A DNA stretch of 64,000 bases, from contig JACNFQ010000089.1 in assembly GCA_014384545.1 (NCBI GenBank), positions 34,578 through 98,577 on the forward strand, in the 5' to 3' direction. A program made the position numbers and the translations under genes. Positions 21,498-28,631 of the stretch are shown here, in pieces. The notes below the pieces were generated by a model. That model worked only from the letters and a program-made list of their open reading frames with translations, did not search any database and was not told where the DNA came from. The DNA is from a bacterium. Lineage in GTDB: Bacteria > UBP7 > UBA6624. Every line of letters starts with the position of its first letter. Position 1 is the stretch's first letter.

Positions 21498-22844
21498 GTG
21501 CCACCGTCTTTCTCTACACCCCCTCCACGTCAACTCCTAGACTCCCTTCCCCCCTCTGTTGACCCACGGTTACGCCCTTTCTTGTTGCGCGTGGCTTGGA
21601 CCGTTGAAGAGGGTTCAGCCTCTGTCGTCTTGCACCCTCTAAGCGAAGCGGGTTATCGTCTGGCACAAAAACATCTTTCGCTCTTGTGTCGGTTGGCTAA
21701 GGATCTTCGTTTTTGTCTTGTTCTAGGAGATTTTAAAGCGACAACTTCTCTATCTCCGTCTCAACAAACTTCCCCCCGAAAAGAAAAGACCAAAGCAACC
21801 CCTCGTTCCTCCTCTCTCGTTCATTGGGCGGGCATTAAAGAGGCTCTTGTCTTGTTGGATTCTTTGGTTCAGGGAGACCGCCTTCCCCAACCCCTCTTAT
21901 TCTTTGGACCCCCTGGTGTGGGAAAAACGCGCTTGTTACAACGGGCATCGGAGAAAGTCTTGGGGTCCCTTTATCTCTCTTCACAGGGGTTTACCGAGCG
22001 CGTCGTTCGGGCAGCAAGAACGAACAGAATTGGGCACCTAAAGTCCGCCCTCTCTTCCCCCCCCCTTCTCTTAGTAGATGATCTCCAAGCTCTAGCGGGG
22101 AGAAAGCGGAGTTTGGAGGTGTTGTTGGTCGTCTTGACCATGCGGATTGAATCTCATCTTCCCACACTCTTTGCTCTGGACAGAACGCCTCAATCTTTAC
22201 AGGATTTCCCCGCCCGTCTATCCAGTCGCCTAGGTCAAGGGCTCTCTCTTTCTATTCCTCCCCTAGACCAAGAGTCAAGGAAAAAGCTACTCCAGTCTTT
22301 TGCGCGGTCTTTTCCCGAGGTTAAATGGCCCCCAGGGGCCCTCTCTCTTGCTTCTGGTGGTTTGACAGGGGACGTTCGGGCTCTTCAGGGGTTTGTCCAT
22401 CGATATCACTGGGGGTGCACCCGTGGGGGGCTCTCTCCCAAAGAAGCTCTTGCCGCGGCTTTAGGGTCCCCGAAGAAAAACCACCCCTCCCTCCCCTTTC
22501 TTGAAGAGGTGTCTCAGGCTCTCTCTTTGCTCCCATCAGCTCTTCTGTCTAAGGTTCGTCATGTGGACTTGGTGCGGGCACGGCGTATTTGGGCGATTCT
22601 TCTCTTGTGCCGGGAGGGGGGTTCTCGTTCCTCAGCTGCTCGGATTATGGGGGTTGATCCCTCTACCATCGCTTACGCTGTGAAAAAGGGGGGAGAACTC
22701 TGGAAAAAGGACCTCCTCTTTACGAAGACCCTCTCTGCCCTTGCTACTTTCCACCACCTTTCCCTACCCTTTTCCTCCCCCGCTATTTCTTCTGAAAACC
22801 CGACTATTCCCCAGCTTTTTCCGTTGCAGGAGGAGGAGTTGTAG
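21498..22844 (+). CDS. dnaA: Replication initiator DnaA (divergent)
   Basis: Replication initiator ATPase, 448 aa. Domain I-like region about 1-80, linker 80-105, AAA+ domain with Walker A GPPGVGKT (137-144), Walker B LLLVDDLQAL (191-200), the initiator-specific helix (FTERVVRAARTNR) and sensor I region ALDRTPQSL. Domain IV ends with RSSAARIMGVDPSTIAYA, where most DnaA proteins have GGRDHTTV; the DNA-contacting Arg and His of that signature are replaced. GTG start. The coding strand is strongly C/T-rich, unlike dnaN immediately downstream, which drives a protein rich in Leu, Ser, Pro and Arg. Identity is supported by gene order with dnaN and gyrB. Confidence 0.92.
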   Translation: MPPSFSTPPPRQLLDSLPPSVDPRLRPFLLRVAWTVEEGSASVVLHPLSEAGYRLAQKHLSLLCRLAKDLRFCLVLGDFKATTSLSPSQQTSPRKEKTKATPRSSSLVHWAGIKEALVLLDSLVQGDRLPQPLLFFGPPGVGKTRLLQRASEKVLGSLYLSSQGFTERVVRAARTNRIGHLKSALSSPPLLLVDDLQALAGRKRSLEVLLVVLTMRIESHLPTLFALDRTPQSLQDFPARLSSRLGQGLSLSIPPLDQESRKKLLQSFARSFPEVKWPPGALSLASGGLTGDVRALQGFVHRYHWGCTRGGLSPKEALAAALGSPKKNHPSLPFLEEVSQALSLLPSALLSKVRHVDLVRARRIWAILLLCREGGSRSSAARIMGVDPSTIAYAVKKGGELWKKDLLFTKTLSALATFHHLSLPFSSPAISSENPTIPQLFPLQEEEL

Positions 22845-22890: not shown

Positions 22891-24027
22891 ATGAAACAAT
22901 ATCTTGATGCGAACCAGCTATACAAAGCACTTTCTAAGTTATCAACCGCTGCTGGAGATTCGATGTTGGGAGGAGGTAGAGGCACCCCCCACGTTTCAGT
23001 CAAGCAGGAAAAAGGACAGCTAAAGTTAGAGACATTTAGTTCAGTTTCTGGGGCACAAGTTACACTTGAGACGCCCCACATTACAGAGGGAGATGGCGAA
23101 ACAAGGATATATCCCTTAGTAGAGATGCGCGAACTTGTAAGAAGACTGGGCGGAAAAATGGAGTTTATGGTCGACAAGAAAGGACACCTGCTTCTTTCTT
23201 CGGGGGGGTCTCGATACAAGATAAAGAGTGTGATTCCAGATGCCCCCCTGGAGTTTCCTTTTGGCGAAGAAGAGTCTGAGGAGAGTTTTGAAGTAGATGG
23301 CCCCGTCCTGTTCAAGGCGCTACAAGAAGTTCTCGTCGTGGCAAAGAGCCCATCGGGCAGGTCCTATTCGGGGGGGACACTCTTCGATTTTCGAGGGAAA
23401 CTCCGCCTCGTAAATACAGACGGGTTTCGCATGGCGGTCATCTCACTAGAAAACCCTAGTGGGATTCAAAGGCGCATTCAAGTGGATACGGAAGCGATCA
23501 AGAACTTCGCTAAAGCGTTGGGCAACGAGGAGGGCATCGTAGAAGGAGAGATTCATGACCACTATATCCTCTTCGTAAAGGACTCCATGAGGTTTTCGGT
23601 CACTACCTTGACGGTATCTTATCCCGACTACGAAAAAATCTTGGATCGTAAACAGCCCGGAGAAATCCACTTTGACAAAGAAGAGATGCAAGGCGCACTA
23701 GAAAGATTACTACAGTTTGGGAAATACCAAGAACAGAGCAATGCGATTCAGTTCCATTTTGAAAACGGAGAAGTGTTACTAACGATTGAAGAAACGCCCA
23801 AAGGAAAAGGGGAAGAGACATTGACATTCCCCGTGGAGACAGAAGAAGACGCTTTTTCGGTCTCTCTCAACGGAGGTTTTCTCTTGGACTTCTTACGAGT
23901 CGCGAACGCAAATAAGATCATACTTCTCCACGACACACCACAAGCTGCGTGTCTTTTTTACCCTGAGGGAAATGAGGATTTTTCCTATTACCTAATGACC
24001 CTAAAGCATCCAGGAATAAGAAGCTGA
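22891..24027 (+). CDS. dnaN: DNA polymerase III beta clamp DnaN
   Basis: Sliding clamp that tethers DNA polymerase III. Three repeated clamp domains over 378 aa: MKQYLDANQLYKALSKL at the start, a middle domain with FEVDGPVLFKALQEV and GTLFDFRGKLRLVNTDGFRMAV, and the ending with NGGFLLDFLRVAN and FYPEGNEDFSYYLMTLK. The ATG at 22891 matches family N-termini; the longer open frame runs back into dnaA in another frame. Its stop overlaps the next gene as CTGA. Confidence 0.96.
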   Translation: MKQYLDANQLYKALSKLSTAAGDSMLGGGRGTPHVSVKQEKGQLKLETFSSVSGAQVTLETPHITEGDGETRIYPLVEMRELVRRLGGKMEFMVDKKGHLLLSSGGSRYKIKSVIPDAPLEFPFGEEESEESFEVDGPVLFKALQEVLVVAKSPSGRSYSGGTLFDFRGKLRLVNTDGFRMAVISLENPSGIQRRIQVDTEAIKNFAKALGNEEGIVEGEIHDHYILFVKDSMRFSVTTLTVSYPDYEKILDRKQPGEIHFDKEEMQGALERLLQFGKYQEQSNAIQFHFENGEVLLTIEETPKGKGEETLTFPVETEEDAFSVSLNGGFLLDFLRVANANKIILLHDTPQAACLFYPEGNEDFSYYLMTLKHPGIRS

Positions 24028-24290
24028 GAAAAGGGGGCAAAGAGGCAAGAAGCCTCCTTGAAGGGTTGGTGAGAGAGCTTGTCCCCCAGGCAAGCAAGAA
24101 TAGAGAAGTTCGGGGTGCCTTGGCAAAGGAAGCACCTGCAGAATGGTTAGAGAGGATAGAGGTTGTCTCACTGGTGAACGGCGTACTAACACTTCGCGTA
24201 GAGCACCCTGCGATGAGAGAAGAGGTAAGGAGATGTTCCCCAGGTTGGATTATCCCGATTGAAGGGGTTAGGGAGGTTCGGGTTCAATGA
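24024..24290 (+). CDS. DciA/DUF721-like protein, probable CTG start
   Basis: Short protein of 88 aa between dnaN and a phosphohexomutase-like gene, a position where DciA-like (DUF721) helicase-loader proteins commonly sit. The pattern KGGKEARSLLEGLVRELV, then a KH-like beta/helix segment (LVNGVLTLRVEHPAMREEV), fits that family. The N-terminal helix lies before the first canonical start (GTG at 24066). CTG at 24024-24026 overlaps the dnaN stop as CTGA and gives MRKGGKEARSLLE, a normal DciA start. It overlaps the next gene as ATGA. Family call is moderate; start is inferred. Confidence 0.65.
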   Translation: MRKGGKEARSLLEGLVRELVPQASKNREVRGALAKEAPAEWLERIEVVSLVNGVLTLRVEHPAMREEVRRCSPGWIIPIEGVREVRVQ

Positions 24291-25630
24291 GAAATCTCTC
24301 TGGCTGGGGGGCAAACGGGTTTCTGTTCGGCCGTTGGGGGAGAGAGGCTACAAGTAGGAGCTTATCCGAAGCAGCACTTTGGGCTTTTAGAGAGAGCGAA
24401 AAAGAGGGTGTTCTTCTGGGTCATGACGGATATCGGTTTATGTCTTCTGAGATTGCTGAAGCGATTCAAGAGCGGCTAGTGGGACAAGGGATACCCGTGC
24501 GAGGACTGGAAAGAGCGACGACGCCCCCAGCAATCGCACAGGAGGTGAAGAGAACGAAAGAAGTGATGGGTATTGCTGTCACGGGGGCAGGAGAGAGAGC
24601 GGGCTTTGTGGGAATCAAACTCTTTGGTAATATGGGCCACCCCATGAAACTGAAAATGCCCCCAATTGAGGAGAGAGAGCAGCCCCCCCCAGCAAGGGAG
24701 GCTGTCGAACCCCTAGTTGATCGTTCTGACCTAGGAGCAAATCTCGTAGCAAAAGTCCTAACGATAGCGGGTAAGGGGCGCGGAAGGAAGATAGGGTTGG
24801 ATCTTTGTCACGGAAGCGGAAGGAGATTATGGAAGACTCTGTTTCACGAAGAAGAGCTGGTGTGGTTTAGAGAAGAGAAGAGACCGATGGCGATGGGGTT
24901 TAGAGAAGAGAGAGACTTTGGACAAGAGATTGAGAAAGGGGGGTTCTCTTGTGGAATCCGTGTAGAAGATGGAGGAGAGAGGTTTACAGTTTGGGACGAA
25001 AAGGGAAGTGAAGTTCCCGACGCCATCGTACAGAGTATGGTTCTACAAGAGGTGGTCAAACTCAAAGGAGCTAAAGGACCACTCGTCAGATCTGTAGATA
25101 CAAGCTCCACGATAGGGCAAGCGGCGAAAGAGATGGGGCTTAGTGAAGTTTTTACCTCCACAAAAGAGGGGAACATTACTGATGTCACCCACCAACACCA
25201 CGGCGTAATGGCGGTAAAGAGGGGCAACTGGATTTACCTCCCCTTTGGAGCACCCTGTGGAGATGCGATGTCTTCTATCGTCCTTTTCCTAGGGCACTGG
25301 GGAAGAACAAGAGGAACACTATCGACCTTGGTAAACGAAACGTTACGCCGACTGGGAAGAAGGTATACCAGCGAAGTGAGGCTTACCCTAGACACCAATG
25401 AGTATCTGCGGGTCGACCATAGACTAAAAGAAGAACCGATTATGGAACTAGCTAACTCCCCCCTTTCTGGAGTTCGAGATATTGAGGGCATTAGGACCGA
25501 TTATGAGAATGGGACCTGGTTTTGGGCTTCTCCTCGCAAGTTTGGGCAAATCGTTCTCTTCCTAGAGTCTCCCAATGAGGCGACATTGAGGCGTAGTGAG
25601 GGAGAGTTACTAAAGAGGTTAGGACTATAG
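24287..25630 (+). CDS. Phosphohexomutase-like protein lacking catalytic motifs
   Basis: The fold of GlmM/ManB-type alpha-phosphohexomutases is recognisable: VLLGHDGYRFMSSEIAEAI corresponds to the V-x-G-x-D-x-R-x-S/L-S-E-E segment and VGIKLFG follows the active-site loop. The loop itself, normally TASHNP, is TGAGER (99-104), so the phosphoserine is Ala101. The metal loop DGDADR reads EDGGER, the sugar-binding GGEESG is not found, and the C-terminal RPSGTEP phosphate loop is replaced by WFWASPRKF. Full length (447 aa), ATGA-coupled to the DciA-like gene and followed by gyrB with a good ribosome site. It is best read as a maintained pseudoenzyme of unknown role. Confidence 0.75.
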   Translation: MRNLSGWGANGFLFGRWGREATSRSLSEAALWAFRESEKEGVLLGHDGYRFMSSEIAEAIQERLVGQGIPVRGLERATTPPAIAQEVKRTKEVMGIAVTGAGERAGFVGIKLFGNMGHPMKLKMPPIEEREQPPPAREAVEPLVDRSDLGANLVAKVLTIAGKGRGRKIGLDLCHGSGRRLWKTLFHEEELVWFREEKRPMAMGFREERDFGQEIEKGGFSCGIRVEDGGERFTVWDEKGSEVPDAIVQSMVLQEVVKLKGAKGPLVRSVDTSSTIGQAAKEMGLSEVFTSTKEGNITDVTHQHHGVMAVKRGNWIYLPFGAPCGDAMSSIVLFLGHWGRTRGTLSTLVNETLRRLGRRYTSEVRLTLDTNEYLRVDHRLKEEPIMELANSPLSGVRDIEGIRTDYENGTWFWASPRKFGQIVLFLESPNEATLRRSEGELLKRLGL

Positions 25631-25646
25631 AATAACCGGAGGAAAC

Positions 25647-27716
25647 ATGGCAAAAACGAGCGGCAAGAAAGGAGAGTACACAGCGGGTCAAATCCAAGTT
25701 CTACAAGGACTTGAAGCTGTGCGCAAACGACCAGCTATGTATATTGGCGATACCTCTTCTGGTGGGCTACATCATTTGGTTTGGGAAGTGTTGGACAATG
25801 CGATTGATGAGGCAATGGCTGGGGAGTGTACCAAGATCGTTATTGAACTGATAGAAGATGGCAGTTGTCGGGTAACTGACAATGGTCGAGGAATCCCCGT
25901 GGACATACACAAAGGTGAAGGTGTCCCGGCGGTTGAACTCGTTCTAGGAAGACTCCACGCTGGTGGCAAGTTCGATGCAGAGGCTTACAAGGTTTCTGGG
26001 GGACTTCATGGTGTGGGGGTTTCTTGTGTCAACGCTCTTTCAAGTTCACTTATAGCAACGATTCACCGAGATGGTGGCAGGCACGAGATTACCTTTGAAA
26101 GAGGAAGTGTGACAAAACCCCTAAAGAAAACAGGGAAGAATAGTGGAAGGGGCACAACGATTCAGTTCATACCAGATCCTGAGATTTTTCGTGAAGGGAC
26201 ACGGTTCAACAGGAGAACACTCCAAAAGAGAATCAAGGAGTTGGCTTATCTCAATAAGGGGCTATCGATTCAACTTATTGATGGACGAAAAGATGAAGAA
26301 GAGGCGCTCAATGTTACTTATCTTTTTGAGGGGGGTATTTCAGAATATGTTCAAGAATTGGTTCAAAATGCTCCAACCCTCCTAAACGAACCGTTTTTCT
26401 GCCATGAAACGGTCCCCGGGAAAGGGGAGAGTAGTGGGGTAGAGGTGGAGGTTAGTTTCCAATACTTTACCCAACGCAGAGGAGAGACCCTCTCTTTTGT
26501 CAACAATATTCGCACCCATAATGGTGGAACCCATGTGACAGGATTGAATATGGCGATTACAGGTGCTATCAAGAAGTACATGACCGAGTATCGGCTTGAA
26601 GAAAAGGGACTAAAGATAGATGGAGAGTCAATTCGGTACGGGTTACAAGCTGTTTTAGCCGTTCGTCTCCACGAACCCCAGTTTGAGGGGCAAACGAAAG
26701 GGAAACTAGGAACGACGGCAGCGAAAGGAGCTGTTCAGACCGCGGTCTGGGGCACCTTTTATAGGTGGCTTGAACAGAATCCATCAGAAGCGAAGAAGAT
26801 CGTACTCTTGACCGTCACAATTGCTAAAGCGACCCAAAAAGCGAAGAAGGCATTTGAGCTTGAAAGGAACAAGGAGGTTTTTGGGAGTGGGGTTCTTCCA
26901 GGTAAACTGACAGACTGTATTTTGAAAGACCCTTCTCGAACAGAGCTCTTTATTGTAGAGGGTGATTCAGCGGGTGGGAATACAAAACAGGGAAGAGAGG
27001 CAGAGTTTCAGGCCGTCCTGCCATTGCGTGGGAAGATCCTTAATGTGGAGAAGGTAATCTCAGAAGAGAGGCTGTTGTCGAATGTGGAGATCAAGGCGTT
27101 GATTCAAGCGGTGGGCGTGGGGTATTGCCCAGAGGCGGACTATCTCCCTGACAGAGTCTTTGAGGATCTTTACCCGACAGAAGATGCGGCCCGAGAAGCA
27201 AGGGCAATCAAGAGAACATTCCCGGTTTCCGAGATGAGCACGGTAGCGAGAGGAGGGATGGCGTTAGATAAGTTGCGGTACAACAAAATCATTATCATGA
27301 CAGATGCAGATGTGGACGGAGCTCACATTACGACCCTCCTCCTCACCTTTTTCTACCGCAGGATGTACCCCTTGTTGGAGGATGGGCACATCTATGTTGC
27401 TCAACCCCCACTCTACAAAGTTCGCGCAGGTAAAGACGAAAGATATGTAGCTGACGACCGAGAAAAAGAAGCCGTGATGGAAGAGCTAGCAGATAAAAAC
27501 CCTGTGGTGCAGCGATTCAAGGGGTTGGGTGAGATGGATGCGATTGAACTTTGGGACACCACGATGGATCCAGATAAGAGGACCCTTCACCGTGTTCAGA
27601 TCGTGGAAGCAGAAGAGGCAGAATCTGTATTCCAGACCCTTATGGGAAAAGATGTGGAATCTCGCAAGCGGTTTATTGAAAGGAACGCGACTAAGGTCAT
27701 GAACCTCGACGTCTAG
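25647..27716 (+). CDS. gyrB: DNA gyrase subunit B
   Basis: ATPase subunit of gyrase. GHKL ATP-binding site with RKRPAMYIGD, EVLDNAIDEA, DNGRGIPVDIH and GGLHGVGVSCVNALS; TOPRIM domain with EGDSAGG and DADVDGAHI; C-terminal QRFKGLGEMDA. 689 aa is a normal length without insertions. ATG is preceded by GGAGG. No gyrA follows; instead a polysaccharide cluster begins. Confidence 0.97.
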   Translation: MAKTSGKKGEYTAGQIQVLQGLEAVRKRPAMYIGDTSSGGLHHLVWEVLDNAIDEAMAGECTKIVIELIEDGSCRVTDNGRGIPVDIHKGEGVPAVELVLGRLHAGGKFDAEAYKVSGGLHGVGVSCVNALSSSLIATIHRDGGRHEITFERGSVTKPLKKTGKNSGRGTTIQFIPDPEIFREGTRFNRRTLQKRIKELAYLNKGLSIQLIDGRKDEEEALNVTYLFEGGISEYVQELVQNAPTLLNEPFFCHETVPGKGESSGVEVEVSFQYFTQRRGETLSFVNNIRTHNGGTHVTGLNMAITGAIKKYMTEYRLEEKGLKIDGESIRYGLQAVLAVRLHEPQFEGQTKGKLGTTAAKGAVQTAVWGTFYRWLEQNPSEAKKIVLLTVTIAKATQKAKKAFELERNKEVFGSGVLPGKLTDCILKDPSRTELFIVEGDSAGGNTKQGREAEFQAVLPLRGKILNVEKVISEERLLSNVEIKALIQAVGVGYCPEADYLPDRVFEDLYPTEDAAREARAIKRTFPVSEMSTVARGGMALDKLRYNKIIIMTDADVDGAHITTLLLTFFYRRMYPLLEDGHIYVAQPPLYKVRAGKDERYVADDREKEAVMEELADKNPVVQRFKGLGEMDAIELWDTTMDPDKRTLHRVQIVEAEEAESVFQTLMGKDVESRKRFIERNATKVMNLDV

Positions 27717-27728
27717 TGTTGAGATAAG

Positions 27729-28631
27729 GTGGACCTAGTGAGACTCGCTGGCGCGGGGGTAGCGGGTGGGCTCGTTTCTTTCTTTTCCTCAATCGTATTA
27801 CCTAGACTTTTCCCCCACCTTCTACTAGACCACCCCCAAGAGAGAAAGTCCCACGACAAACCGACCCATCTCTGGGGCGGGATGGCGATGGTTCTTGGGT
27901 TTTTCACCTTTATCACAATCTCTGACACAAGCCTACCTATGAGCTTGTGGGGGGTCTTACTAGGTGCAGCCCTCTTAGGTGTTATAGATGACCTAAGGGG
28001 AGTGTCCGCTCTCCCGAAACTATTTTTCCAAGGCGTGTTAGGTGTGGGATTTGTAGCGACTCATGGTCACCTACCCTTTTTTGGTCCCAACTGGGTTGAA
28101 GTGTGTGGAACGATTCTCTTTTTTGTTCTTGTCCTAAACGGATACAACTTTCTAGATGGGTTGAACGGGCTATTGGGGGGACACATCTTCCTTTCCGCTC
28201 TAGCTCTCCTAATCATGGGCATCACGATGGAAAGTCCCCTTGTGGCTGTATTGGGAGCAGGAATGGTGGCAACGACTTCGGGATTCCTAATCCCCAATTC
28301 GAAAGGGGACCTCTTTATGGGGGATGGGGGCTCTCTTTTCTTGGGGGTGGCGATGATAAGTGGACTTCTCGCTCTTTCCTCTATTGAAACCCTAGGAAGA
28401 GGTGTGTGGTGGGTGGCACTCCCCCTTCTATTACCTCTGGGAGATCTGGGTTGGGTGACGATCCGACGCATGAGCAAAGGAAGAAGCCCTTTTGTGGCTG
28501 ACAAGAAGCATCTCCACCATATACTCGCGAAGAGATTAGGGGCAAAACGGTCTGTAGCGATTCTCTTGGTGATTACAGCCGGATTGTCCACACTTGGTGT
28601 CTTGGGGGCACTTGGTAGGATTTCCCCATGA
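27729..28631 (+). CDS. Undecaprenyl-phosphate sugar-1-phosphate transferase (WecA/MraY family)
   Basis: Integral membrane GT4-type enzyme that loads a HexNAc-1-phosphate onto undecaprenyl phosphate, starting a surface glycan. About ten hydrophobic helices with the family motifs GVIDDLRGV, NGYNFLDGLNGL, a FMGDGGS loop and KKHLHHILAKR. GTG start 12 nt after gyrB; its end overlaps the next gene as ATGA. It heads the polysaccharide cluster and is more WecA/TagO-like than MraY-like by context. Confidence 0.88.
   Translation: MDLVRLAGAGVAGGLVSFFSSIVLPRLFPHLLLDHPQERKSHDKPTHLWGGMAMVLGFFTFITISDTSLPMSLWGVLLGAALLGVIDDLRGVSALPKLFFQGVLGVGFVATHGHLPFFGPNWVEVCGTILFFVLVLNGYNFLDGLNGLLGGHIFLSALALLIMGITMESPLVAVLGAGMVATTSGFLIPNSKGDLFMGDGGSLFLGVAMISGLLALSSIETLGRGVWWVALPLLLPLGDLGWVTIRRMSKGRSPFVADKKHLHHILAKRLGAKRSVAILLVITAGLSTLGVLGALGRISP

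Follow-up and report, generated by a model that had tools for sequence, protein, structure and literature searches.

The gene located at positions 24287–25630 (+ strand) of the window, i.e., the whole 64,000-nucleotide stretch analyzed, encodes a catalytically degenerate homologue of the α-D-phosphohexomutases (447 amino acids), recognized by its open reading frame, profile, fold and alignment, and its sequence argues strongly for a pseudoenzyme. The catalytic motifs have been lost, yet the protein has been retained under selection, as measured on its C-terminal half, and mutase catalysis is presumably absent. The first-pass annotation had proposed a pseudoenzyme, for which it held a sugar- or nucleotide-sensing role tied to replication to be conceivable. 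The pseudoenzyme part stands, with the loops altered in both known genera of the uncultured candidate phylum UBP7 and active paralogues encoded elsewhere; the sensing part is not supported, and what points to replication is synteny only.

The reading frame starts with ATG and has zero internal stops, so the gene is intact with the coordinates given to it before. Its start codon overlaps by 4 nt (ATGA, 24287–24290) the stop codon of a small dciA-like ORF (24024–24290, +; 88 amino acids, start codon uncertain; 20.2 bits with PF05258, cut-off 24), and its stop codon is separated from the gyrB ATG (25647–27716, +) by a gap of 16 nt that contains GGAGG. In view of this overlap and this gap, the translational coupling with the neighbours that had been stated earlier is plausible. 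The position assigned to the gene, in a dnaN–gyrB operon, was correct as to gyrB, which adjoins it, but the immediate upstream neighbour is the dciA-like ORF and not dnaN. The complete gene string is dnaA (21498–22844, +; AAA+ domain present, DnaA-box signature absent), dnaN (22894–24027, +; a divergent sliding clamp), the dciA-like ORF, the mutase homologue, gyrB, a GT4 (WecA/MraY-type) sugar-phosphate transferase (27729–28631, +) that follows gyrB in each of the three UBP7 genomes, and then UDP-sugar genes.

Concerning family membership, the window protein scored 35 bits with Pfam PGM_PMM_I (domain I; cut-off 22.5) and 66 bits with NCBIfam Arch_GlmM over residues 33–413 (cut-off 439), scores that indicate a significant but remote homology to phosphohexomutases. 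In the orthologue from genome G001, Pfam domain III was above its cut-off. Considering the Pfam domains together with the structure match along residues 6–447, domains I–IV of the superfamily fold are present in order and at full length. The GlmM equivalog models gave 28 bits (TIGR01455, cut-off 447.55) and 66 bits (TIGR03990, cut-off 439), cut-offs that were also missed by the motif-intact GlmM of the same genome (304 and 230 bits). Structure prediction recovered the phosphohexomutase fold: an AlphaFold2 model built from three sequences (mean pLDDT 60) had archaeal and bacterial PMM/PGM structures as its top matches along residues 6–447 (Foldseek E 5e-20), and a second model (pLDDT 51) gave the same fold match again and nothing further. 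Comparison of the model with a PMM/PGM structure gave a VIA Z of 19.6, with 356 residues aligned and an rmsd of 11 Å, while one PMM/PGM entry reached 3.7 Å over 272 residues; we think that misplaced domains may explain the high rmsd. Both models are of moderate quality and, with a whole-chain rmsd of 11–13 Å, they are unreliable as to the geometry of the altered cleft and the arrangement of the domains. Because of the latter uncertainty, no argument was based on cleft geometry.

The active-site loops were compared in an alignment of 34 active relatives and the three UBP7 copies. The changed loop positions are highly conserved among the 34 active relatives (most of them 88–100%). All the following coordinates are on the + strand. 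In loop 0 (24326–24343), FGTDGxR of the active enzymes is replaced by FGRWGR (YGKWGR in the sister genus). In loop 1 (24581–24598), the catalytic TASHNP is replaced by TGAGER (TAGSSP in the sister genus), the catalytic Ser becoming Ala101, the His Gly102 and the Asn Glu103; the Ser position is occupied by Ala in the window protein, by Gly in G001 and by Ser in 34/34 active relatives. The register of this position is firm, as the T of TASHNP and the G of GIK are spaced identically and without gaps in the sequences shown, and it is also backed by profile alignment to solved structures. In loop 2 (24965–24982), the metal-binding DGDGDR is replaced by EDGGER (DDSGER in the sister genomes), so that the DGDxDR motif corresponds to E227-D-G-G-E-R232, in which the Arg, along with the fold on either side, is all that is kept. 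In loop 3 (25208–25228), the sugar-binding GEESGG is replaced by MAVKRGN, identical in 3/3 genomes; it aligns with V310-K-R-G-N, and two acidic residues became K-R. In loop 4 (25526–25549), the phosphate-binding RPSGTEP gives way to ASPRKFGQ and the RxSGTEP motif is absent, with a different replacement (ANTEEHSR) in G001. The first-pass annotation was thus right about the Ser to Ala change, about the metal loop (residues 227–232) and about the replacement of the sugar and phosphate loops. To these four elements a fifth is to be added, loop 3B (25154–25171), where T-P-V-G-F-K is replaced by T-S-T-K-E-G, so that KEG stands in place of GFK and the base Lys is out of register. None of the motifs that mark an active enzyme (phosphoserine TASHNP, metal DGDxDR, GE(E/P)SG and RxSGTE) is found in the window protein. 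Just 5′ of the lost phosphate loop lies GIRTDYENG (25487–25513, +), the longest stretch identical in both genera.

Orthologues were available from three incomplete UBP7 genomes, with completeness of 62–86%: that of the window, G001 (PBAU01, bacterium SP4379) and G002 (DLTY01, UBP7_UBA7824). In every case the mutase homologue adjoins gyrB. The order in G001 matches that of the window, the small dciA-like ORF included; the G002 contig breaks off within the mutase homologue, with gyrB and GT4 following, so that the dnaN side is seen in the other two genomes only. The G001 orthologue is only 30% identical to the window protein and, at the same locus, is also altered in all the loops (Gly at the Ser position, metal loop DDSGER, sugar loop MAVKRGN). 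Despite this low overall identity, GIRTDYENG and MAVKRGN are the longest stretches identical between the genera. Neither an intact active site nor a frameshifted copy was found at the locus in the three UBP7 genomes. Between G001 and G002, dN/dS was 0.035–0.037 over the C-terminal 217 codons, which cover loops 2–4, as compared with 0.027–0.037 for the active PGM/PMM and 0.16–0.29 for GT4. Purifying selection on the C-terminal half is as strong as that on the active PGM/PMM. The three copies form one clade (100/99 support) with very long branches (2.6–4.0), and its place within the superfamily is not firm.

A scan of 287 further genomes gave ordinary mutases only (best score 60 bits) and no orthologue, none of the mutase loci retrieved had gyrB alongside, and the idea of a wider family of dnaN–gyrB mutases was rejected on this basis. 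A GTDB-wide scan with two short peptide motifs, which diverged orthologues may escape, gave only the two UBP7 sister genomes. As a separate observation, one mutase relative (L009 in genome G017) carries TGSHKP together with DGDADH, in which the metal-loop Arg is replaced.

Active paralogues are present in the same phylum. The window genome encodes, on other contigs, a GlmM (SASHNP, DGDADR) and a PGM/PMM (TASHNP, DGDGDR) with intact motifs, i.e., the second, active mutase whose existence the pseudoenzyme proposal had left to be checked. A motif-intact PGM/PMM occurs in 3/3 UBP7 genomes, and the identity of the mutase homologue to the active paralogues is 18–21%. The gene that precedes glmM in the window genome was taken by us as YbbR, although no NCBIfam model recognizes it. 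In G001 and G002, GlmM was searched for and not found, while the GlmU acetyltransferase domain is present in both; either PGM/PMM may serve both steps, or GlmM may lie in the missing parts of these genomes.

The replication genes around the mutase homologue are themselves unusual. In both the window and G001, DnaA retains the ATPase domain while the RDHST DnaA-box signature of domain IV is missing, the equivalents being GVDP-STI and NVKK-SAI, with a two-residue deletion. The native UBP7 DnaA copies score 122–171 bits with the DnaA family (cut-off 343.9), and DnaN is a weak family match. No recF was found between dnaN and gyrB (22894–25647), nor any above the family cut-off in the three UBP7 genomes (62–86% complete). 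The GC skew switches sign at about 22 kb of the window and, judged by this switch, the locus lies at a chromosome origin; no TTATCCACA-like DnaA box (≤1 mismatch) occurs between 18.2 and 27.0 kb. The UBP7 replication machinery is aberrant, and the pseudoenzyme joins other oddities of the same gene string. Two contigs of G001 (C16 and C12, loci L090 and L091) carry a canonical second dnaA and dnaN–gyrB–gyrA; they are probably contaminants in the PBAU01 assembly because of their lower GC and different tetranucleotide use.

Concerning the role of the protein, we give about even chances to its being a conserved pseudoenzyme retained for binding or as a scaffold, with no enzymatic function, and working with the replication machinery. 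Conserved synteny is what suggests the link to replication, and both the binding or scaffold role and the identity of the partner are proposed here conditionally. A four-domain phosphohexomutase fold would have lost catalysis and the binding of metal, sugar and phosphate prior to the divergence of the two known UBP7 genera, and would since have persisted as a binding or scaffold protein, co-produced with DnaA, DnaN, DciA and GyrB. The former sugar-binding cleft would now carry the conserved basic KRGN loop and the conserved GIRTDYENG strand, which most likely would bind a new partner, either another product of the operon with a part in replication or topology, or a polyanion, DNA for instance. 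Retention under selection, together with new conserved and partly basic loops, fits the binding of a new partner, and the operon suggests that it may be a replication protein, while the conserved GT4 in the same string makes an envelope role also possible. The UBP7 mutase homologues are basic (pI 8.3–9.4) and the active paralogues of the phylum acidic (5.5–6.3), but this charge is weak evidence, because an active relative not related to the UBP7 copies (L040) also has a pI of 9.7. That a mutase may act by protein contact has a precedent in GlmM, which inhibits CdaA by binding (PMC8573169). A candidate clamp-binding motif (Q249-S-M-V-L / QAFLY) was dropped, as it lies in a helix of the fold and matches the consensus poorly. 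More specifically, the mutase fold might have been taken into DNA replication as a component without catalytic function, serving a machinery whose DnaA has no DnaA-box recognition residues and for which no recF was found; this we regard as doubtful, albeit conceivable.

Other explanations have to be weighed against this one. Since the residues for catalysis and for metal, sugar and phosphate binding have all been lost, both mutase catalysis and the sensing of sugar phosphates at the ancestral site seem unlikely. A sensor of sugar phosphates or nucleotide sugars that couples replication to the supply of envelope precursors, perhaps with the downstream GT4, would agree with the superfamily fold, with the WecA/MraY-type gene after gyrB in 3/3 genomes and with the fact that an inactive mutase, PGM5, can still bind substrate (PMC7761743). 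However, the change of GEESGG to KRGN reverses the charge, the metal loop is altered, the phosphate loop is lost with replacements that differ between genera, and little is left of the ancestral ligand site, so a sensor of this kind is rather unlikely. The strong purifying selection on the C-terminal half could also mean that the protein has remained an enzyme, one whose chemistry is new and dispenses with the phosphoserine, and the conserved D/E-rich remnant of loop 2 (DxGER) and the new conserved polar loops could form an active site. This is unlikely too, as active sites seldom vary between genera in the way that the altered loops 1, 3B and 4 do. We know of no enzyme family of phosphohexomutase fold with phosphoserine-free chemistry.

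An active PGM/PMM in all three genomes would allow for a heteromeric pseudo-subunit that regulates the active mutases, with the position in the replication operon being incidental, and two papers describe active relatives as often regulated by pseudoenzymes (PMC10211241, PMC11266112). Nevertheless, the active paralogues lie at other loci and share only 18–21% identity with the protein, and in both genera its gene belongs to the replication string; this explanation is improbable. Finally, the very long tree branches and the low identity might recall a decaying gene or an assembly artefact, but the gene is intact in separately deposited genomes, with a dN/dS around 0.04 and altered motifs in common. 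Purifying selection and conserved synteny rule out recent decay or an artefact, and barely any credence is left for this option.

One of the closest known systems is vertebrate PGM5 (aciculin), a conserved pseudoenzyme of the superfamily fold for which a structural role has been proposed and whose mutase activity is negligible. It still has the Ser that can be phosphorylated and the metal Asp residues, and it still binds glucose-1-phosphate (PMC7761743), while the UBP7 protein is altered in the Ser, metal, sugar and phosphate loops and no intact substrate site of the PGM5 kind is left, which is why the sensing role is not supported. Moreover, PGM5 is a eukaryotic muscle protein, and the UBP7 protein is bacterial and encoded beside replication genes. 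GlmM has the same four-domain fold and acts on another protein by contact without catalysis (PMC8573169), but it is an active enzyme with SASHNP and DGDxDR, and the window genome has its own GlmM at a separate locus. The archaeal-type PMM/PGM/GlmM proteins (TIGR03990) provide the best family-model and structure matches of the UBP7 protein, which, unlike them, has no catalytic motifs and scores far below their cut-off (66 and 94 bits against 439).

Inactive phosphohexomutases were already known from animals (PGM5); searches of the open-access literature brought up no bacterial phosphohexomutase pseudoenzyme and no such protein encoded in a replication operon. The gene should not be annotated as a phosphoglucomutase. 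If its product indeed works with DnaA, DnaN, DciA or GyrB, a fold of sugar metabolism would have been recruited into replication, at an origin with an unusual initiator.
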